Positions 26,285 to 37,113 of a DNA stretch of 64,000 nt are shown piece by piece. The DNA is from Microvirga sp. TS319. GTDB taxonomy: Bacteria; Pseudomonadota; Alphaproteobacteria; Rhizobiales; Beijerinckiaceae. The position numbers and the translations under genes were made by a program. The DNA lies in the NCBI RefSeq assembly GCF_041276405.1, contig NZ_JBGGGT010000001.1, positions 107,501 through 171,500 of the forward strand, in the 5' to 3' direction. The notes beneath the pieces were generated by a model. The model saw only the letters and a program-made list of their open reading frames with translations. It had not been told where the DNA came from and searched no databases. Position 1 is the stretch's first letter, and each line of letters starts with the position of its first letter.

Positions 26285-26407
26285 GTTCCTCACGGCTTGT
26301 GAAAAGGGTCTCCCGCGCCGCGAGCCGCGGGGGACTCCAATACATCACTCAGTTCTGAAGAGCGGCGCCCGCCACGACGGGAAAGCCGCCTCCACACGGG
26401 AACCCCC

Positions 26408-28579
26408 ATGTCCGCACCAGACACGTCCGCCCTGATCGAGAACCGCAGCCTCGAGGAAAAATTCGATCCCGAGATGCGCTTCCGTCCCCTTCTGCCGGGA
26501 ACGGCCTGGCTCGTGGCGGGGCTCCTGCTCACGCTCTCGATGTTCCATTACTACACGGCGGGATTCGGCCTGCTGCGCGAGGCCACCCATCGCGGCATTC
26601 ACATGGCCTTCGTGCTGGGCCTCATCTTCCTCGTGTTCTCCGCCTTCAAGTCCAATCAGGACCGGATCGTCCCGTCGAGCCTGTGGCGGCCGGGCGGCAT
26701 CTCCCTCGTCGACTGGGGATTTGCCGTCGCGGTTGCGATCGCGAGCCTTTACGTTCCGTGGATTTTCAACGAGCTCGCCTTCCGGGTCGGCAACCCTTCC
26801 ACGACGGATGTCGTCATGGGAACGATCCTGATCGTGCTCCTGCTCGAAGCGACGCGCCGATCGGTCGGCTGGCCGCTCCCCGTCATCGGCATCGGCATGA
26901 TGCTCTATGCCTATTTCGGGCCGTCCATGCCCGGCATCCTGCAGCATCCCGGGGCGTCCTGGTCGAACATCGTCAACCACCTCTACCTCACGAGCCAGGG
27001 CATCTATGGCATCGCGCTTGGCGTGGTGGCGACCTATGTCTTCCATTACGTGCTCTTCGGCGTGCTGGCGACGCGCGTCGGGCTCGGCAAGCTCTTCATC
27101 GATCTCGCGACCTGTCTCGCGGGCCGCTATGCGGGTGGGCCCGCGAAGGTGTCGATCTTCGGATCGGCCCTGTTCGGCATGATCTCGGGTTCGTCCATCG
27201 CCAACACGGTGACGGTCGGCTCCCTGACGATTCCCGCCATGATCCGCGTCGGCTACAAGCGCCATTTCGCGGCGGCGGTCGAATCCGCGGCGTCGACGGG
27301 CGGGCAGATCACGCCGCCGATCATGGGCGCGGCCGCGTTCCTCATGGTCGAGTTCCTGAACGTCTCGTATCAGACAGTCATTCTCGCGGCGCTGGTTCCC
27401 GCCTGCATGCACTTCTTCGGCGTCTTCATGCAGGTGCATCTGGAGGCGAAGCGCGCGGGCCTGCGCGGGCTGCCGGCCGAGGAGCTTCCGAACGCCGCCA
27501 AGGTGATCCGCGAAGGCTGGCAGACGATCATGCCGCTCGCCGTTCTTCTGATGGTGCTGTTCTCGGGCTTCACGCCCTATCTCGCGGCGTTCTGGGGCAT
27601 CACCGCCTGCATCGTGGTCGGGGTGAGCCGCATTCCCGCCGTGACGCTGGGCTTCCTCGCGGCCGTCGCCGTCGGCATCGCTGCCGGGCTCCTGACCCAG
27701 ATCGCCTTCGTCCTGCCGCTGCTGCTCCTGGTCGTGGCGCTCCTGATCTACGCCTATGTCACAAGCGACGCCGGCAAGGCAAAGGTGATCGATCTCGTCG
27801 ACGCCTTCGTGGTCGGCGCCAAATACGCCATCGGCGTGGGCGCCGCGGCGGCCACGGTCGGCATCATCGTGGGCATCGTGACGCTCACCGGCGTGGGCTT
27901 CAAGATCTCCTTCATCGTGACGTCGTTCGCCGCCCAGATGGCCCAGACCATGAGCGAGATCCTGCCCGTGTGGTTCATGGACGTGAAGAGCATGACCCTG
28001 TTCTTCACGCTGCTGATGACGGCGGTCGTCTGCATCCTTCTCGGCTGCGGCGTTCCGACCACGGCGAACTACATCATCATGGTGACCGTGGCGGCTCCCG
28101 CTCTCGGCCTGCTCGGGGTGGTTCCGATCGTGGCGCATTTCTTCGTGTTCTATTACGGAGTGCTCGCCGACATCACGCCGCCCGTGGCGCTGGCGGCCTA
28201 TGCGGGCGCGAGCATGGCGGGGGCCGATCCGTTCAAGACCGGCAACACCGCGTTCCGCCTCGGCCTCGGCAAGGCGCTGGTGCCCTTCGTCTTCGTGTAC
28301 GGCCCGGCCATGCTGCTGGTGACGCCGGACTTCACCTGGGCGAGCTTCTTCCTGGTGACCGCAGGCGCCATGGCCGGCATCCTGTGCCTGTCGGCGGCGT
28401 TCGCCGGCTACGCACTGACGGAGATGCGGGCCTGGGAGCGCTGGCTTATCGGCATCGCGGCCCTGCCGATCATCGCGCCCGATCTGCGCACCACCCTGGT
28501 CGGCCTCGCGATCGCCTCCCCGGTCGTTGCGTCCCAGATTCTGAAGGTGCGCGCGCAGACGGTTTCCGCTCCGGCCTGA
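26408..28579 (+). CDS. TRAP transporter fused permease (DctQ-DctM type, 4TM+12TM)
   Basis: 723 residues, strongly hydrophobic throughout with about 17-18 membrane segments. The large subunit signature is visible near the centre: FGSALFGMISGSSIANTVTVGSLTIPAMIRVGYKRHFAAAVESAASTGGQITPPIMGAAAF, here only quoted in parts as GSSIANTVTVG and STGGQITPPIMGAAAF. A second repeat has GCGVPTTANYIIM. Fused permeases pair with TAXI binding proteins, as the gene before. Secondary sodium- or proton-driven uptake is the family role. Confidence 0.9.
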   Translation: MSAPDTSALIENRSLEEKFDPEMRFRPLLPGTAWLVAGLLLTLSMFHYYTAGFGLLREATHRGIHMAFVLGLIFLVFSAFKSNQDRIVPSSLWRPGGISLVDWGFAVAVAIASLYVPWIFNELAFRVGNPSTTDVVMGTILIVLLLEATRRSVGWPLPVIGIGMMLYAYFGPSMPGILQHPGASWSNIVNHLYLTSQGIYGIALGVVATYVFHYVLFGVLATRVGLGKLFIDLATCLAGRYAGGPAKVSIFGSALFGMISGSSIANTVTVGSLTIPAMIRVGYKRHFAAAVESAASTGGQITPPIMGAAAFLMVEFLNVSYQTVILAALVPACMHFFGVFMQVHLEAKRAGLRGLPAEELPNAAKVIREGWQTIMPLAVLLMVLFSGFTPYLAAFWGITACIVVGVSRIPAVTLGFLAAVAVGIAAGLLTQIAFVLPLLLLVVALLIYAYVTSDAGKAKVIDLVDAFVVGAKYAIGVGAAAATVGIIVGIVTLTGVGFKISFIVTSFAAQMAQTMSEILPVWFMDVKSMTLFFTLLMTAVVCILLGCGVPTTANYIIMVTVAAPALGLLGVVPIVAHFFVFYYGVLADITPPVALAAYAGASMAGADPFKTGNTAFRLGLGKALVPFVFVYGPAMLLVTPDFTWASFFLVTAGAMAGILCLSAAFAGYALTEMRAWERWLIGIAALPIIAPDLRTTLVGLAIASPVVASQILKVRAQTVSAPA

Positions 28580-28616
28580 CCGGAGTCGGCCGGATCCATT
28601 CCGGTTATCGCCTGTT

Positions 28617-28652
28617 GTCCCTGCGGGGCCTTCCAAGGGCCCCCGCAGGGAC
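28617..28652. terminator. Hairpin terminator after the TRAP operon
   Basis: GTCCCTGCGGGGCC, loop TTCCAAG, then GGCCCCCGCAGGGAC: a 14-bp stem with one bulged base, 37 bases after the permease stop. No T tract follows, so it is intrinsic-like but may need Rho or serve as an RNA-stabilising hairpin. Confidence 0.5.
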
Positions 28653-28657
28653 GTGCG

Positions 28658-29575
28658 ATGGAGTTGGTATCCGCCTTTCAGATCATTCGGGGGGAGGGCG
28701 AGCGCCCGGGCGCCTTCGCGGCGTTTCCCTATGACCGCGATCTCGTGCGCCGGTTTCGCGAGGCGTTCCCGCGGGCGCGCTGGCGCGGCGAGGAGCAGGG
28801 CTGGTTCGTGCCGGGCACCACGGCCGAGCAGCGGCTCAATGCCTGGATGGCCCAGGAACTCGCCGATCTCGACCGTCACGCGGACGCGAAGGGGCGCGAC
28901 GCCTATTTCTTCGAGCCCCTGGAAAGCCCGTATCTGAGCATCGGCGAGGACCTGAGAATCCGCACGCCCTACTCGCGGACGGTCGTCGAGACGCTGCGCT
29001 CCATTCCCTGGGCCTCCTGGAACCCGGAGGACAAGGTCTGGCACGTGCCGTTCCGCTCCTACGAGGCGCTGCGGCAGAAATGGTCCGTGATCGAGGAAGC
29101 GGCCCGGCGCAACGAGCCGGCCGCGAGGCAGCGGCGCCGCGAGGAGCAGAGGCAAGCCGGCGCGGCGCGGATCGACCCGGCTCAGGCGGAACGCCGCCGG
29201 AGGCGCTATCCGGTTCTGGGGGACGACCTCCCGCCCGTCGAAACGCCGCTCATGACGATTCCCTGGGGCGTCGTGGTGTTCGACGAGATCGATGATCATG
29301 TGATCGAGGAGGCGCTGGACGCGAACCTCTATCCGCACGCGGCGGCGGATCCGGGGCGCCATGTCTGGGCCCATTGGAGGATGCCTGCCCTGCAGGAGGT
29401 CTACCGGGCACGGCCCGCCCGGGACGCGGAAGAGCTCTCCCTGCGGGAGAGCCGAGGCTGGTGGCGGCCGAGCCGGGACGAGCTCCAGGAACGGGCCCGC
29501 CGGCTGCGCCAGAGCGAGCGAGCGCAGCGCGCCCGCCATGCGGGGCACAAGGATTTGCGAGGGGCTGGAGATTGA
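28658..29575 (+). CDS. Protein with two HARP-like repeats, function unknown
   Basis: 305 residues, ATG 28658 with GGGACGTGCG upstream. Two related segments have the spacing of HARP (SMARCAL1-type) domains: FPYDRDLVRRFREAFPRARW...GWFVPG (residues about 23-55) and YSRTVVETLRSIPWASWNPEDKVWHVPF (about 107-135). HARP domains bind fork or single-strand junction DNA in annealing helicases, but no helicase motifs are present here. A basic Arg-rich linker and C-terminus follow. It is close to ssb and other DNA-metabolism genes, which fits a DNA-binding role; this is inference. The product was not otherwise recognised. Confidence 0.5.
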   Translation: MELVSAFQIIRGEGERPGAFAAFPYDRDLVRRFREAFPRARWRGEEQGWFVPGTTAEQRLNAWMAQELADLDRHADAKGRDAYFFEPLESPYLSIGEDLRIRTPYSRTVVETLRSIPWASWNPEDKVWHVPFRSYEALRQKWSVIEEAARRNEPAARQRRREEQRQAGAARIDPAQAERRRRRYPVLGDDLPPVETPLMTIPWGVVVFDEIDDHVIEEALDANLYPHAAADPGRHVWAHWRMPALQEVYRARPARDAEELSLRESRGWWRPSRDELQERARRLRQSERAQRARHAGHKDLRGAGD

Positions 29576-29752
29576 AGGTCATAAGGGGAGGGGCGCGAGG
29601 ACGGATGACGCGGCGCCTCACGACACCCTCCGCCGTCATGGCCGGGACACGCCCGGCCATGACGAGAGAGCAGTGACGGGCCTGCGAGCAGCAGGCCGGT
29701 CCCGAAAGCGGGAGCGGCTTTTGACGTGCGGTGCTCTCTCCAGGCCGTCCGA

Positions 29753-30259
29753 TCAGAACGGAATGTCGTCGTCGAAATCGCTGCGGCGGGAGCTCGCGCC
29801 TGCCGGTTCGGGCCGGCGTTCCATGGGAGAGGAACGGCCGAAATCGCCACCGCGGCTGATCTGGCCCGGCTCCTCGTCGCCGTATTCCGACGACGCGCCG
29901 CCGCCCGAGCGCCCGTCCAGGATCGTCATCTCGCCGCGGAAGCGCTGCAGCACCACCTCGGTGGTGTACTTCTCCTGGCCCGACTGGTCGGTCCATTTGC
30001 GGGTCTGGAGCTGGCCTTCGATGTAAACCTTCGAGCCCTTCTTGAGATATTGCTCGGCCACCCGGCCCAGGTTCTCGTTGAAGATCACCACCGAGTGCCA
30101 CTCGGTCTTTTCCTTGCGCTCGCCCGTGGCCTTGTCCTTCCAGGTCTCCGAGGTGGCAATGCGCAGGTTCACCACCGGCTCGCCGTTGCTCAGCCGGCGC
30201 ACCTCCGGGTCGCGCCCCAGATTGCCCACCAATATCACCTTGTTCACGCTGCCTGCCAT
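29753..30259 (-). CDS. ssb: Single-stranded DNA-binding protein SSB
   Basis: 168 residues from ATG 30259, with CAGGAG upstream. OB-fold start [62 protein letters not shown], glycine/acidic linker and the acidic C-terminal tip DDDIPF that recruits repair partners. A LexA-type box is centred 87 bases before the start. SSB coats single strands in replication and recombination. The region around it is rich in DNA-processing genes. Confidence 0.96.
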
Positions 30260-30338
30260 CGGGCACTCTCCTGTCCGTCTCTCCCGGACGCGGTCCGGGT
30301 CTGTTGCACTCTCCTGCCCATGAGGGGCATCACCTAAT

Positions 30339-30353
30339 GTTCTATCTTTGTTC
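30339..30353 (-). promoter_or_regulatory. LexA-type SOS box upstream of ssb
   Basis: GTTC-N7-GTTC direct repeat with the AT-rich spacer TATCTTT, the known alphaproteobacterial LexA box form. On the ssb strand it reads GAAC-N7-GAAC followed by ATTAGG. It sits 80 bases before the ssb ATG, so ssb is likely induced by DNA damage. Confidence 0.75.
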
Positions 30354-30569
30354 CAAACGAATTGCAAGGGCGAAGACGCGGGCGAGGGCGATCCGGGAGG
30401 GAATGGGCCGGCCCATGAGCGCAGCCGGCGACGCGTCCGAAGACCCACGTCGGAGGCATGGAGATCGGTATCCGATGGCGGTGACGAATGAGGCGGGCGA
30501 TCGCCGCCGTGCTCTTTCGTGGAACGGCGCGGATATGCATCGCCGGACGAAGCGAAAGCTCATGCGAAA

Positions 30570-31336: not shown

Positions 31337-31957
31337 TCACCGTAGGTTCCAGGCTGCCTGAAGCAATCGAACGAGTTTCGTTCCGGTCCTGCGGATTCGA
31401 TAAGGTGCCTGCCATGCGGGGGCCGGAACCCTTTCCATGGTGTAGCGTGCGGAACGGATACGCGTTGTCGTCGAAAAGGGGCGCGCGCCTGTCTGACCGC
31501 GCATGCGCCAGGTATCGTCGAGCTTGGTATCGTCAAGTTTGCGAAAACCCGTGTCTGCCAAGGAGTTTTCGAAAGAACCCGACTCCCAGAAGATGGGAAT
31601 TCGATCATCGTTTCGCAAGATCGGAGCCATCGCCGGAGCAGGAATTCGCGGCTCCCGAGCGACCTGCGGCCAAGCCGAGATTTCGTAGCGCGCGACCTTG
31701 AAGGTCTGCGCGAATTCCGGATCCGTCTCCACACGGTAGGCGGACGCCGCGCGCGAGAACGCCTCTGCGAAGGGCGTCATCGCGCACCATTGCTTTTCCG
31801 CCATGTGCAGCGGCCATGTCCACAGGCCGTCCTCGCGCCGCTGGCCGAGACTCTCGCGCTCGATGAAATAGCCGGTCGTCTTGTGCTCAAGACCATCCTC
31901 GCTCACGAGCCACTCTTGGTTCTCGAAGATCGGGCGAACGTCCGTCATGGCGGTCAT
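31337..31957 (-). CDS. Unknown protein, first gene of left SOS operon
   Basis: 206 residues (an ATG at 31948 is an alternative start). The sequence is rich in Trp (VRPIFENQEWLVSEDGLEHKTTGYFI; DGLWTWPLHMAEKQWCAMTPF; YEISAWPQVAREPRI) and ends with a basic region (RIRRTGTKLVRLLQAAWNLR). No domain recognised. It is directly downstream of a LexA-type box and begins a three-gene run. The compact Trp-rich first half suggests a folded domain, not disorder. Nothing shows catalytic residues. Confidence 0.6.
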   Translation of the reverse strand: MTAMTDVRPIFENQEWLVSEDGLEHKTTGYFIERESLGQRREDGLWTWPLHMAEKQWCAMTPFAEAFSRAASAYRVETDPEFAQTFKVARYEISAWPQVAREPRIPAPAMAPILRNDDRIPIFWESGSFENSLADTGFRKLDDTKLDDTWRMRGQTGARPFSTTTRIRSARYTMERVPAPAWQAPYRIRRTGTKLVRLLQAAWNLR

Positions 31958-32320: not shown

Positions 32321-32617
32321 ATGACGAGTCGGACACGCCTGGAATCGGACAGCCTCAGGCGTCTCGAAGACCTGCGCAAAACCTTCGACAAGCTCCGGGC
32401 GGAGCGCATCCGCGCGGAAGGTGAAGTCGAGCGACTGGCGCGCGACCTGGACGAGGCGAAGGCGCTCGCCAAGGCCGAGCTGGGCACCGACGACGAGGAT
32501 GAAATCCGCGGCCTCATCGAGACCGCCGCAGCGCAAAATGCGACGCTCGTCGAGGAGTTCGGCGCGGCACTCGGCGAAGTCGAGGCGCGTCTGCGCCAGC
32601 TCGGGGAAGAGCGCTGA
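32321..32617 (+). CDS. Small coiled-coil protein, first gene of right operon
   Basis: 98 residues, wholly helical with heptad repeats (RLEDLRKTFDKLRAERIRAEGEVERLARDLDEAKALAKAEL; ATLVEEFGAALGEVEARLRQLGEER). No other motif. Its stop TGA overlaps the ATG of the ATPase gene by one base (TGATG), so the products are probably made in fixed ratio. It may supply the missing coiled-coil arm of the permuted ATPase encoded next, since that protein has only a short coil before its signature domain. This is inference. The start has GGAG about 11 bases upstream. Confidence 0.72.
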   Translation: MTSRTRLESDSLRRLEDLRKTFDKLRAERIRAEGEVERLARDLDEAKALAKAELGTDDEDEIRGLIETAAAQNATLVEEFGAALGEVEARLRQLGEER

Positions 32618-34446
32618 TGGAGCGTTCCGCCGATCACGATCTGAGCCGCGCCGAGTCGTCCCTCGCGCGGCTGGAAGGCCGGCGCGATGCGATCGCGCTG
32701 CGCCTTGCGGAGCTGACGCGCGAGATTGAGCTCGCCAAGGGGCGCCTTGCGGTCAAGGACGAGGTGGAAGCCTTCATCGAGGCGGTGCACGGCAATGCCA
32801 GCCGCCGCAATCTCGCAGCCTTCGAGACCCTGCTCACGGCTCTCGTGCAGGAGGTGCTGCCGGGCGAGAAGCCCGTAGCGCTGGAGCTGTCGACGGAGCG
32901 GGGTCTCGCGTCCCTCGACATCTGCGTCCGCCGCCCGGACGGGACGCTCGAGGATGTGCTCGAGGACAATGGCGGCGCGCTCACCAATGTCGTCGGCATG
33001 GCGCTGCGGCTCATTGCCGTGGTGAAGGCCGATGTGGCGCGATTCCTCGCGCTCGACGAGGCCGATTGCTGGATCGCGCCCGACCGCGTGTCCTCGTTCT
33101 ACAAGGTTCTGGAGGACGGCGCGGCGCGTCTCGGCGTGCAGTGTTTCGCCGTGTCCCATCACGATCTGTCGCAGTTCTCCGGCACGTTTCATATCGCCCG
33201 CATCGCCGGAGAGCCGGTCGGCGGCGTGAGCGTGCAGTCGGCGGATTGCAGCGCGGCCTGGAACGATGGGCAGCCGGGCCTGCGCTTCATCCGCCTCGTC
33301 AATGTCCAGGCTTATCAGGATGCGACGCTTTCCTTGAGCCCTGGCGTGAACGCGCTGATCGGTCCGAACAACCGCGGCAAGTCCACCTTCATCCGCGCGT
33401 TGCGCGCCGTGTTCTACGGAGAAGCGCGCGACAGCCTCGTGCGTGCGGGCGCGAAATCCGCCATCGTCGAGATCGGCGTCGTGGGCAGGCGTCTGTTGCG
33501 CTTCACCCGTCAGCCGCGCCGTTCTCCGGTGAACGTCTGGTCCCTCCACGAGGCCGATGGATCGGTCGTGGAGGAGAAGGGCATGCGCTACGAGACCGGC
33601 GGGCGCAACGTGCCGGACTGGGTGGGCGATCTGATGCGCATCACCAAAGTGGAGGATCTCGACGTCCATGTCGCGCACCAGAAGTTCCCGGTGTTCCTGC
33701 TGGGCGAAAGCGCCTCGCGCCGCTCCGCCGTTCTCTCCATCGGGCAGGAAGCGAGCTATATCCGCGACATGCTGATGATCCATCGCGAGCGCTGCACCCG
33801 CGACAACGCCGTGGTCCGCAACGGCGAGCGGGAGCTCGTCGCGCTGCGGGAACGGTTCGAGAGCCTCGAAGAGATCGGCGCTTTGAAAACCCGGCTGAGC
33901 ACCCTTCGCGGCAAGGCGCAGGAGATCGCGTCCGCCTCGGAGGCCCTGAGGACCCGGCAGGATCACGCGGCCCGGCTCACAGGCCTGGTGCGGCAGCTCG
34001 ATGCCGCCCGGGCGCGTCTTTCGGCGACCGATGCTCTACCGCAGGCGGAGCGTGCCGCCGAGCTGGCGCGCCGGGTCGGGCAGGCGCGCGAGCGCGAGCG
34101 CATCGGCCGCCGGGTCCTCGAACTCGGCAGGGAGCTTTCCTCGGGCAGGCAGCGCCTTCATGCGCTTCGGTCGCTGCCCGACGCGGCGCCGGTTCTTGAA
34201 GACCCGTCGGGGGCGCAAGCCATGGCCAAGCGCATCGCCGATCTGCGGAGCGCCGCCCTGATCGCGAAAAGCCGCGTGGCGCAGATCGACGAGGGCCTGA
34301 CATCCGTCCAGGCCGAAATGGCGCGTTTCGTCGCGGAGACCGGCGGGCTTTGCCCGACCTGCGGATCGCCCGTGAGCGCGGAGAACCTCCTGGACCATCA
34401 CGCCCATTCCTCTCATTCCTCGCCGTCGGAGCGGCTGATCGCATGA
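32617..34446 (+). CDS. Circularly permuted SMC/Rad50 (SbcC)-like ATPase
   Basis: 609 residues in one open frame. Elements of a Rad50-type ATPase are all visible but in a swapped order: short N-terminal coil (1-45), signature-like DNGGALTNVVGMALR (117-131), Walker B RFLALDEADCW (142-152), H-loop AVSHHD (178-183), then a link (about 200-222) and IRLVNVQAYQDATLSL, Walker A IGPNNRGKST (248-257), a Q-loop candidate in VHVAHQKFPVFLLG (350-363), coiled coil (about 395-560) and a zinc-hook CPTC (579-582). Normally Walker A is N-terminal and the signature/Walker B C-terminal, with the hook in the middle. The head would be intact but the hook at the C-terminus. Overlaps the next gene by ATGA. DNA-end tethering with the phosphoesterase is inferred. 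Confidence 0.85.
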   Translation: MERSADHDLSRAESSLARLEGRRDAIALRLAELTREIELAKGRLAVKDEVEAFIEAVHGNASRRNLAAFETLLTALVQEVLPGEKPVALELSTERGLASLDICVRRPDGTLEDVLEDNGGALTNVVGMALRLIAVVKADVARFLALDEADCWIAPDRVSSFYKVLEDGAARLGVQCFAVSHHDLSQFSGTFHIARIAGEPVGGVSVQSADCSAAWNDGQPGLRFIRLVNVQAYQDATLSLSPGVNALIGPNNRGKSTFIRALRAVFYGEARDSLVRAGAKSAIVEIGVVGRRLLRFTRQPRRSPVNVWSLHEADGSVVEEKGMRYETGGRNVPDWVGDLMRITKVEDLDVHVAHQKFPVFLLGESASRRSAVLSIGQEASYIRDMLMIHRERCTRDNAVVRNGERELVALRERFESLEEIGALKTRLSTLRGKAQEIASASEALRTRQDHAARLTGLVRQLDAARARLSATDALPQAERAAELARRVGQARERERIGRRVLELGRELSSGRQRLHALRSLPDAAPVLEDPSGAQAMAKRIADLRSAALIAKSRVAQIDEGLTSVQAEMARFVAETGGLCPTCGSPVSAENLLDHHAHSSHSSPSERLIA

Positions 34447-35441
34447 TCCTGTCCGGAAACCGCCTGCCCCCTCTCTCCTGCAGCGGCCTTCTCGTGATCG
34501 GTGACCCTCACGTGGGGTCGCGGCGCCCTGGACGGCGCAAGGATGCAGTCTGGCCGCAGGCTCTGCTCGCCAAGCTCGAGCGCTGCGTCGCCATCGCCAA
34601 TGAGCGCGGCCTCGCGCCGGTGATCCTCGGCGACCTGTTCGACCGACCCGTGGAGCCGGACGAGGCGCTGAAGAGCCAGCTCATCCGCACGCTCAAGAGC
34701 TTCCGCCACCGTCCGCTCGTGAATGTGGGCAATCACGATATCCAGCACACGATGCTGACCGATGGCGACACGCTGGCGCTGCTCGGCCTATGCGACGTGG
34801 TGGACGTGGTCTCGGCATCCGGTCCGGTGACCGAGTTTCACATCGGGACGCGGCGCGTGGGCGTCGGCATGACGCCCTACGGTCAGGCGATCCCGACCGA
34901 TCTGCGCGGCTCCTTCTCGGACGTCGATCTCAACGCCTGGTTCACGCATCACGACATCGCCTTCGACGGCGGCTATCCGGGCGCAGTGCCGCCCTTCGCG
35001 GTCGAGGGCTGCGACGTGCTCGTCAACGGGCACATTCACAAGACCCAGAAGGCCGTGACGGCCGGGCGCACCCGCTGGCTCAACCCGGGCAACATCAACC
35101 GCCAGTCGGTGGATCTGGCGAACCATGTTCCCCGTGCCTGGATTCTCGACGCGGGTGGCGGGCTCGAGGCGCAGGATCTGCCGCATGAGCGCGACGTGTT
35201 CGATCTCACGGGGCGGATCGTGGAGGCGGCCGACGGCGGCATGGTGGCGCGCGAGGTGGAGAGCGCCTTCGTCACGCTGCTCCAGGCCGAATCCTCGACC
35301 GAGCTGAAACGCAGCGGCGACGGCTCCATCGTTCGCGACGAGGTCGAGGCGAAATTCGTGCAGGACGACACGCCGGATGCCGTGCGCGCGATCGTGCGCT
35401 CGCTCCTGAGCGAGGCCGTGGAACGGCACGCGGGGTCTTAA
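34443..35441 (+). CDS. SbcD/Mre11-like metallophosphoesterase
   Basis: 332 residues. Calcineurin-type metal ligands are complete: GDPHVG (residues about 20-25), GDLFDRP, NVGNHDIQH, the THHDIAF His and GHIHK. The length is shorter than SbcD, with a C-terminal acidic cap region (residues about 240-330). It overlaps the permuted ATPase by ATGA, so a two-protein complex of SbcCD type is likely, although in normal sbcDC operons the nuclease is encoded first. Family enzymes cut DNA ends and hairpins with manganese. Its stop and that of the converging gene at 35438 share four bases. Confidence 0.85.
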   Translation: MILSGNRLPPLSCSGLLVIGDPHVGSRRPGRRKDAVWPQALLAKLERCVAIANERGLAPVILGDLFDRPVEPDEALKSQLIRTLKSFRHRPLVNVGNHDIQHTMLTDGDTLALLGLCDVVDVVSASGPVTEFHIGTRRVGVGMTPYGQAIPTDLRGSFSDVDLNAWFTHHDIAFDGGYPGAVPPFAVEGCDVLVNGHIHKTQKAVTAGRTRWLNPGNINRQSVDLANHVPRAWILDAGGGLEAQDLPHERDVFDLTGRIVEAADGGMVAREVESAFVTLLQAESSTELKRSGDGSIVRDEVEAKFVQDDTPDAVRAIVRSLLSEAVERHAGS

Positions 35442-36088
35442 AACGCGAAGGGATCCGCATAGGGCAGGCGCCGCCTGCGGACCGGGGTTTCAGGCAGGAT
35501 CGGCCGGTTGATATCGACGGCAATGAGCCCTTCGCAGGCGAGCGCCAGGACGGCCGCGACGCCGTCCTGGGTGTTCATCACGGCGCCTGCGCAATCCACC
35601 AGCCGCATCGTGCCGGCCTCGTCGAGCTGATGCAGGACGCGGACCCGGTCTCCCGCCGTCACGGGCGTGCGCCTGCAGGCCTTGACGAGCCGCACCGTCG
35701 TAAAGCGCGGCTCGGCGCGGATGCTCGCGGCGGTCTCGATGGAAAAGTGACGGCCGTCCTCGGAGACGAGCCCATGGATCGCCGCCGTCCTCAAGGGATG
35801 GGCGAGAAGGTCCTCGTCGGTCAGCACGTCGACGAGGCAGGCCTGCCCGTCGCGGACGACCTCGAAATCCGCGACGTGCTCGATGGCGGAATCCCCGATC
35901 CTGAACGTGGCGGCTCCCGCCGGTGCGCGTAAGCTCTCGATCTCCGGGTCGAGCTCGCAGATCGCGAGAAAATCGGCCACGAGGCTGCTGCGCGTCAGCG
36001 GCACCGTGGGCTTCCTGGCGGCACGGCGGGGCCCCTGGCGCCGCTCCGGGCGGCGGTCGGACAGATCGAGGATCGCTGGCGCGGACAT
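35438..36088 (-). CDS. TnsA-like (endonuclease-fold) protein, possibly inactive
   Basis: 216 residues from ATG 36088, which follows AGGAGG by six bases. Residues about 80-105 (IEHVADFEVVRDGQACLVDVLTD) match the core strand pair of TnsA-type nucleases (DF...VDVK), but the Lys is replaced by Leu. The C-terminus (VAAVLALACEGLIAVDINRPILPETPV) resembles the TnsA winged-helix tail. It is preceded by a LexA-type box at 36166 and is divergent from the Rad52-like gene. DNA binding without cutting, or a different active site, are options. Assignment is by motif likeness only. Confidence 0.45.
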   Translation of the reverse strand: MSAPAILDLSDRRPERRQGPRRAARKPTVPLTRSSLVADFLAICELDPEIESLRAPAGAATFRIGDSAIEHVADFEVVRDGQACLVDVLTDEDLLAHPLRTAAIHGLVSEDGRHFSIETAASIRAEPRFTTVRLVKACRRTPVTAGDRVRVLHQLDEAGTMRLVDCAGAVMNTQDGVAAVLALACEGLIAVDINRPILPETPVRRRRLPYADPFAF

Positions 36089-36165
36089 TCGGGCCTCCTG
36101 GGACGAGGTGTTTGGCAGGAGAGGGCGGGGAGCATCACGATGGAGCAATTCCCCTCGACAGATAT

Positions 36166-36374: not shown

Positions 36375-36447
36375 GTGCAGACCTCTCCGAAGAGGCCGCC
36401 GAAGAGCGCAGGACCGATTTTTGCGGGCAGTGAGAGATAGGATCGAG

Positions 36448-37113
36448 ATGAATACAGCAGACAAGAAAATCGCCGAGGTGCTTGCAAAATTCGATGAGCC
36501 GATCGCCGGCAATGTCTGGCGCGTCCAGGGCACGGCGGTCATCTATCACAAGACGCTCGAGCGCATCGCCGCCCAGGCCAGGATCAACTTCGACGAGCCG
36601 AAGATCATCCGGGCCGAACGCGACGAGGCTGTCATTCAGGTGACGGGCCGCATGGGCGAACGCGTGGAATGGTCGATCGGCGAGGCTCTGGTGGGCGTGA
36701 ACTATCGCGTATCAGGCAAGCAGGCGGCCTATGTCTATGCCATGGCCGAGAAGCGCGCGAAGGACCGCGTCATCCTCAAGCTCATCGAGCTCCACGGCTT
36801 CGTCTATTCAGAGGAAGAGGCCGACGAGTTCAAGCAGAGCCGTCCCGGCTCTGCCGAGCAGGCGGTGGAAGTCGAGCGCGCCGAGCCCGAGACGACGAAG
36901 GTCGAGGTGACGGCCGACGGCCGCAGCGAAGACGAATTGAAGCAGAAGATCAAGAAGGCCAAGACCATCAACGCCGTCACGGACCTTATGCTTCATGCCG
37001 ACACGCAGAAGCTGCTCTCGGCAATGCCGGAAGGCATTCGCGACGAGATCCGCGATTTCGCCAAGGCGCGTCTCGTGGAGCTCGGGTGGCCGACCAAGAA
37101 GGCGGCCGCCTAA
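36448..37113 (+). CDS. Candidate single-strand annealing protein (Rad52/ERF-like), SOS-controlled
   Basis: 221 residues from ATG 36448, with AGGA upstream. The middle segment (AAYVYAMAEKRAKDRVILKLIELHGFVYSEEEADEF) has the layout of Rad52-superfamily phage annealing proteins, where a helix ending in an RA..R motif precedes a Gly and acidic turn. Residues 40-80 (KTLERIAAQARINFDEPKIIRAERDEAVIQVTGRMG) give beta-alpha elements. The C-terminal 60 residues are helical (DELKQKIKKAKTINAVTDLMLHADTQKLLSAMPEGI). Match is partial, so the name is tentative. Near ssb and under a LexA-type box, an annealing role would fit. Confidence 0.5.
   Translation: MNTADKKIAEVLAKFDEPIAGNVWRVQGTAVIYHKTLERIAAQARINFDEPKIIRAERDEAVIQVTGRMGERVEWSIGEALVGVNYRVSGKQAAYVYAMAEKRAKDRVILKLIELHGFVYSEEEADEFKQSRPGSAEQAVEVERAEPETTKVEVTADGRSEDELKQKIKKAKTINAVTDLMLHADTQKLLSAMPEGIRDEIRDFAKARLVELGWPTKKAAA

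Follow-up and report, generated by a model that had tools for sequence, protein, structure and literature searches.

This report concerns three adjoining genes in a 64,000-nucleotide stretch of the Microvirga sp. TS319 genome (contig NZ_JBGGGT010000001.1, positions 107,501 to 171,500 of the forward strand), which we refer to, at its full length, as the window. We call the genes S, CN and M (Table 1). CN, the central one, codes for a Rad50-like ABC ATPase whose two lobes stand in permuted order. Its open reading frame consists of 609 codons, from the ATG at 32617 to the TGA ending at 34446, and its translation has no internal stop. The stop codon of S overlaps the start codon of CN (TGATG) and CN in turn overlaps M (ATGA); we infer that the three genes form one operon. 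CN has a single match within its own 6.26-Mb genome, and the nearest named homologues match it at 86% (to Microvirga pakistanensis).

Table 1. Genes and features of the S-CN-M locus, with positions in the window
Feature	Position	Strand	Basis or remark
S, 98 residues	32321..32617	+	Helical hairpin/coiled coil, the hairpin deduced from sequence; conserved GTDD turn
CN, permuted Rad50-like ABC ATPase, 609 residues	32617..34446	+	
CN residues 5-80, helices into C-lobe	32629..32856	+	AlphaFold2 (AF2) secondary structure; profile match to 3qkr_B from its start
CN residues 87-210, C-lobe	32875..33246	+	Profile A3 against Rad50 C-terminal chain, E 5.6e-6; Foldseek 1f2u_B
Signature-like NGGALTN, residues 118-124	32968..32988	+	G120 and N124 invariant; G119 nearly so
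Walker B/D-loop LALDEAD, residues 144-150	33046..33066	+	D147, E148 and D150 invariant
H-loop His181	33157..33159	+	Invariant
CN residues 221-377, N-lobe	33277..33747	+	
Walker A IGPNNRGKST, residues 248-257	33358..33387	+	G249, G254 and K255 invariant
Q-loop Gln355	33679..33681	+	Invariant; Q-loop role given by position
CN residues 378-574, arm, four helices	33748..34338	+	AF2 secondary structure
Hook CPTC, residues 579-582, 27 residues from C-terminus	34351..34362	+	C579 and C582 invariant
M, Mre11/SbcD-like metallophosphoesterase, 332 residues	34443..35441	+	Pfam Metallophos; PHROG SbcD-like; Mre11 fold

A Rad50-like ATPase in permuted order

The motifs of CN follow one another in the order signature, Walker B, H-loop, Walker A, Q-loop, arm and CPTC. 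In an alignment of 14 rows (the window's CN and 13 plasmid homologues), the invariant columns include G120, N124, R131, D147, E148, D150, Q175, H181, G249, G254, K255, Q355, C579 and C582, with G119 and P580 nearly so. These columns are the full ABC ATPase set in permuted order. A tblastn search of plasmids with CN returned 21 records, collinear with the query at identities down to about 25%, ten of which cover at least 80% of it; the hosts are Bosea, Methylorubrum, Rhizobium, Acidiphilium, Variovorax, Pseudomonas, Vibrio, Aeromonas and Alteromonas. A scan of genome contigs yielded 63 loci, 61 of them coding for a fused protein. Walker B lies ahead of Walker A in all 61, and CxxC is C-terminal in 58, the remaining three being cut by contig ends. 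The pattern recurs in an alignment of 49 rows (A5), with Walker B before Walker A in 49/49 and a C-terminal CxxC in 48/49; the row that lacks it is a 531-residue protein from a 2.8-kb contig.

The intact frame and the order common to the fused loci bear out the preliminary description of this DNA, which had placed the signature, Walker B and H-loop ahead of Walker A, the coil and CPTC in a single 609-residue frame. That description had also allowed that CN might be two normal genes run together by a frameshift or by faulty assembly. The order shared by the 61 fused loci and the 21 plasmid records excludes this explanation, nothing in CN speaks for it, and we consider it practically inconceivable. 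A metagenomic protein, P0027, has S joined to CN via a frame-shifted stretch, which may be a sequencing error; this is a different joint.

The halves of CN are homologous to the C- and N-lobes of Rad50. A profile of the C-half (A3) matched Rad50 C-terminal chains at E 5.6e-6 and 2.1e-5, ranked over UvrA and SMC, with profile positions 31-211 aligned to the Rad50 C-terminal chain. The corresponding N-half profile (A6) matched Rad50 (3aux/5f3w) at E 5e-17, ranked over SMC, RecF and RecN. The AF2 model of CN has a mean predicted local distance difference test score (pLDDT) of 85.1 and a predicted template modelling score (pTM) of 0.58; across residues 81-380, 21 of the 30 ten-residue blocks reach a pLDDT of at least 90, and the lowest stands at 77. 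When this model was compared with known folds by Foldseek, the top four matches were all Rad50. The best of them, 1f2u_B, is the Rad50 C-terminal chain, as follows from the profile match and from 1f2u_C being N-terminal. Lobe profiles and fold matches to Rad50 chains thus support the permuted Rad50-type ATPase, with a likely terminal hook, that had been proposed, and for which a comparison with Rad50 heads had been suggested. The SMC head 1e69 also matched CN in swapped order, each piece alone being non-significant (0.45 and 35). An SMC-type hinge was not found: the middle of the CN chain is the ATPase head, and no hinge model was among the Pfam matches at 0.1.

The Mre11-like partner

M lies downstream of CN in 58 of the 61 fused loci (in one of them, L030, in two pieces), and the other three loci are cut by contig ends. 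Its AF2 model (pLDDT 83.7, pTM 0.73) has a phosphoesterase core and three C-terminal helices, besides a stretch of low confidence. Foldseek ranks Mre11 or its complexes in the first 19 places and purple acid phosphatases from rank 20. On the strength of its Asp/His metal ligands and its Mre11 fold, M can be classed with Mre11/SbcD. A phmmer search of M against the Protein Data Bank gave nothing significant, and nothing in the window's genome, M included, matched the curated SbcD model TIGR00619 at 0.001.

Seven ligands (D21, H23, D64, H98, H169, H197 and H199) are present in all 63 members outside a clade from megaplasmids of Pseudomonas, Vibrio, Aeromonas and Alteromonas, so that 63 of the 70 counted M proteins have them all. 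The count leaves out L030 (two pieces), L051 (cut), L058, L063 and L076 (M beyond the contig), L079 (split) and L080 (fragment). It was made on aligned ligands, since a motif regular expression (53/70 with all five motifs) proved too strict. In the megaplasmid clade the full set occurs in 0 of 7 proteins (loci L004, L005, L006, L010, L011, L012 and L013, two of the seven near-identical), with single ligands remaining. These proteins are still recognised by a profile of the other M proteins at E 5e-7 to 4e-21 (the best of 140 shuffles gave 0.63), four of them in the C-terminal part too. On a tree of C-halves the clade, with six rows, has support of 94/88. Judged by its ligand positions, a form without nuclease activity seems to have evolved there.

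This clade is an argument for an alternative that overlaps with our preferred interpretation and shares its anatomy, namely that the system is a nuclease-independent tether or SMC-like DNA holder, for instance of megaplasmids, in which cutting by M is optional. Its M proteins are in place and recognisable, yet not one has the full ligand set. The 63 other M proteins, however, keep all seven ligands. All 21 plasmid records with CN exceed 250 kb, but large plasmids simply carry more genes, and in Microvirga sp. VF16 the CN gene is chromosomal. We regard this alternative as possible, if on the doubtful side.

Arm, hook and split relatives

In the AF2 model the arm of CN consists of helices 378-416, 420-472, 477-517 and 531-574, and facing it is one N-terminal stretch, residues 5-80. 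The coil that had been described after Walker A is accordingly there as the arm (378-574), but it is not the only helical part: two helices, 5-45 and 47-80, stand before the C-lobe. Model and profile together suggest that residues 5-80 are equivalent to the end of the Rad50 return coil. The full return strand is absent from CN, and S would be the obvious candidate for part of it. A homologue of S (E <= 1e-3) occurs in 59 of the 63 genome loci, those without a detected one being L073, L075, L078 and L080; S homologues are also found in split operons. At the other end of the chain, a profile of the last 100 residues from 11 proteins aligns CPxCG to the Rad50 hooks 6zff and 1l8d at E 1e-4. Homology of the hooks is likely, given the motif and its position where a Rad50-like arm ends.

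The preliminary description had likened CN to a Rad50 severed at its hook and put together again by way of the ATPase head, and had proposed searching with the two halves separately. Relatives that are naturally cut there do exist, with N-lobe, arm and CPxC on one protein and the C-lobe on another, and both the same order and split versions occur in other genomes. One metagenome-assembled genome (L079) has separate genes in the order N (N-lobe, arm and CPTC), M, S and C. Among 149 genomes sampled from its phylum, at least 6 have a match below 1e-50 and at least 109 a match at 0.001, the rest of these being weak; all six strong loci have the order N-M-S-C, two of them (L118 and L119) being near-identical. 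In a length-limited search with the C-half profile 8000 candidates were scored, of which 1490 proteins reached E <= 0.001. Among the matches listed (120 of 1490), all are split-size, and those named include Crateriforma, Fuerstiella, Thalassoglobus, Rhodopirellula, Planctomicrobium, Waddliaceae, Sumerlaeia and Desulfosalsimonadaceae.

The split form extends to phages. Microcystis phage Mvi-JY20 has the exact N-M-S-C order, whereas Bacillus phage vB_BboS-125 has N, an AP2 gene, S and C, with no M within the stretch examined. In LR745208, a 485-kb phage, the parts are scattered over about 8 kb; phage Magritte has a C-half and an S-like gene, and phage Tunturi_5 a C-half. The phage S genes were assigned by place and by eye, their profile matches being weak. 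The halves also have separate counterparts among the PHROG families, phrog_15167 matching the C-half and phrog_16465 the N-half. Two phage genes, at L123 4006-5244 and L126 7624-8757, resemble a sliding clamp by eye: Magritte gp247, annotated 'ASCE ATPase', and a gene between S and C in LR745208. For CN itself a phage origin found no support: a tblastn search of 50,697 phage records came up empty at 1e-5, scans of viral contigs with P0001, A1 and A4 gave no relative, and the phage relatives surfaced only via the split halves.

On the tree of 53 C-halves, 24 permuted rows lie on one side of a branch with support of 97/96, 24 split bacterial rows are grouped at 93/91 and five phage rows at 100/99. 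The tree is rooted on the phages and has several long branches; passage from split to fused is its simplest reading, not a demonstration. The chain looks like the outcome of a break at the hook, a rotation of the gene order and a fusion of the two halves by way of the head. Starting from an N-M-S-C ancestor, S-CN-M would be reached by a rotation of the gene order followed by one fusion, of C to N.

The arms of the split N-halves contain linker repeats resembling L..L.sPP.L, with a first interval of 53-58 residues. Measured with a pattern written for the repeat of about 39 residues, the spacings are 40, 39 and 39 in L117; 41, 40 and 38 in L118; 39, 39, 40 and 38 in L120; and 40, 38, 40 and 38 in L121. 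They are irregular in L079 (51, 39 and 66) and in permuted arms (L007: 54, 31, 10, 24 and 35). The pattern did not occur in the window's arm, two phage arms lacked the spacing of about 39 residues, and no repeat emerged at 0.01 when three proteins were compared with themselves by blastp. Counted by eye, the PP linkers number 2, 4, 5 or 6, which does not fit a hook that is always at the tip if each linker reverses the chain.

That the lobes are separate proteins in the split relatives means that they need not pair in cis, and the pTM of the CN model leaves domain placement open. The C-lobe of one chain could then complete the N-lobe of another, giving an obligate, intertwined dimer. The N- and C-termini of Rad50 may lie near each other, and if they do, a head formed in cis needs only a short linker. 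We consider such a domain swap unlikely.

A putative end-processing complex and its relation to known systems

S, CN and M probably make up a permuted Mre11-Rad50-type complex with a rewired ATPase chain; the Mre11-fold partner makes the processing and tethering of DNA ends the best reading of its function. Head, arm and, in all likelihood, hook correspond to those of Rad50, but each CN chain runs from a return helix through the C-lobe, a short linker, the N-lobe and the outgoing arm to the likely hook, so that the covalent join is at the head and the arm tip would be open. Two heads could clamp on ATP, each Walker A pairing with the partner's signature, as in Rad50. M would sit at the base of the arm via its C-terminal helices and cut DNA ends, while two arms, each with a CPxC near its free C-terminus, might meet via a shared zinc. 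S would probably supply the missing part of the return coil.

Several observations weigh against this interpretation. The signature noted in the preliminary description is present in its stated place, but it is degenerate (NGGALTN, not LSGG). The pTM of the CN model leaves open both the pairing of lobes within one chain and the path of the arm, and VIA-align covered chiefly residues 213-431 of CN. A profile built solely from the C-halves of split forms (A4) picked up SMC at E 0.007 but not Rad50. Against the curated Rad50 models CN scored 32.6 bits at best, with a cut-off of 700, and it fell below every curated Rad50 cut-off that matched. The top match of the hook profile was an unrelated maturase stretch (6me0, E 4e-5), Rad50 hooks coming second and third. 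Further, M persists in the megaplasmid clade although its metal ligand set is gone, which means that cutting is not a general property. The neighbours of CN in Acidiphilium and Bosea RAC05 give no hint of repair, and three records are unannotated.

Elsewhere the annotated neighbours are mainly recombination genes. The Pseudomonas and Vibrio megaplasmids have a helicase (UvrD-type in one) and a topoisomerase, Aeromonas and Alteromonas have RecQ with or without RdgC, Variovorax has RecJ and ParAB, and one Bosea has LigD. The Microvirga loci share their place, many with ssb and/or uvrA-like neighbours within the flank examined; in the window, 26345-30448 holds an ssb-like gene by Pfam and a gene that we presume to be uvrA-like.

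This setting bears on whether the locus is instead an anti-phage or anti-plasmid defence system of the Lamassu, Gabija or Septu kind, with an SMC-like sensor and a nuclease effector. The PADLOC model of LmuB does match CN residues 236-589 (E 3.6e-10), and the gene is not fixed, since one of two sampled congeners (G504) lacks it. Among the PADLOC matches listed (25 of 45), however, the other 24 fall within residues 220-329, the Walker A lobe common to such ATPases. Since neither S nor M has a match at 0.01 among the PADLOC models, those of LmuA and LmuC included, defence becomes less likely; the recombination neighbours and the conserved place of the Microvirga locus also count against it. We judge such a role to be quite improbable.

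At least 1 of 289 sampled Alphaproteobacteria has a strong match (at least 226 have one at 0.001, the rest being weak), as do at least 2 of 398 genomes from the window's phylum at 1e-15. Replacement of canonical SbcCD by CN was considered and set aside. The window's genome has no match over the cut-off to the curated SbcC model, TIGR00618, either. In 80 genomes from the family, CN (E <= 1e-30) occurs in 3 and a curated SbcD over the cut-off in 9, never in the same genome; chance alone would bring the two together in about 0.34 genomes, so the zero is uninformative. In the split-bearing genomes SbcD was over the cut-off in 0 of 6, and weaker matches were seen in 4 of 6.

Three companion genes were noted in Rhizobiales, also at loci where neither uvrA nor ssb was found in the examined flank. 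The gene at 31337-31957 (-) accompanies the operon in 50 of the 61 fused loci; those at 35438-36148 (-) and 36421-37113 (+) stand beside it in 44. The former of this pair has a weak TnsA-like match (E 8e-4). The latter resembles an annealing protein by eye, with no PHROG match at 0.1 and no Pfam match over the cut-off.

Rad50, SMC and their kin are usually given one chain layout, and current models of arm opening, zipping and DNA tethering presuppose a chain that folds back at the tip without a break. CN points to a natural rewiring of a machine that is usually described with a fixed layout. A natural family with a severed fold-back and its join at the head offers a direct test of the need for a closed tip, and the clade with ligand-less M could separate tethering from cutting. 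More speculatively, and with rather low confidence, we suggest a second, open-tipped Mre11-Rad50 architecture. Its arm would be a one-way rod and not a folded-back coil, S serving as a detachable latch or return strand, and the arm could open at its tip or side with every chain unbroken; in split forms the arm would grow by units of about 39 residues. The architecture would be split in planctomycetes, other bacteria and phages and permuted and fused in proteobacteria, the megaplasmid clade being a nuclease-free DNA holder. Because its members carry names such as 'AAA family ATPase', 'DNA repair protein' or 'hypothetical protein', the group is easily overlooked.

Within the open PMC literature, with subscription papers and preprints outside that scope, no title or abstract start concerned a naturally permuted or split Rad50; the nearest reports deal with Mre11-Rad50 fusions and with SMCs that have no hinge. 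Rearranged Mre11 and Rad50 genes on megaplasmids and in viruses have a parallel in the Mre11-Rad50 fusions of Mimivirus, plasmids and others, which have an N-terminal Mre11 and a C-terminal Rad50 (PMC3175470); the accessible parts of that paper report that one SbcC P-loop segment was not observed in a Bacillus phage and in Anaerostipes, and they do not describe a permuted or split ATPase. Oceanic SMC variants without a hinge, in which the zinc-hook CXXC is said to be absent, are likewise architectural variants of the SMC/Rad50 type; permutation is not mentioned in the accessible parts of that source (PMC12153180). In a survey of jumbo phages SbcC and SbcD are practically universal, and the accessible text uses 'circularly permuted' for methylases only (PMC7824862).

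Among curated families, the best NCBIfam match to CN is ASRP, an archaea-specific SMC-related protein (NF045487; 52.8 bits, cut-off 300). ASRP seems to have the normal order, since CN residue 229 aligns to model position 1. The phage families phrog_15167 (ATPase) and phrog_16465 (exonuclease) are split versions of the CN design, in separate genes and annotated just so. Lamassu LmuB is an SMC-like ATPase, as is CN, whereas S and M match no LmuA or LmuC model at 0.01. With Rad50/SbcC CN shares both ATPase lobes, a CPxC motif near the end of the arm and an adjoining partner with the Mre11 fold. Where Rad50/SbcC runs N-lobe, coil, hook, coil, C-lobe, however, CN runs C-lobe, N-lobe, arm, likely hook, and it is set apart further by its short N-terminal return helix, its degenerate signature and the extra gene, S.

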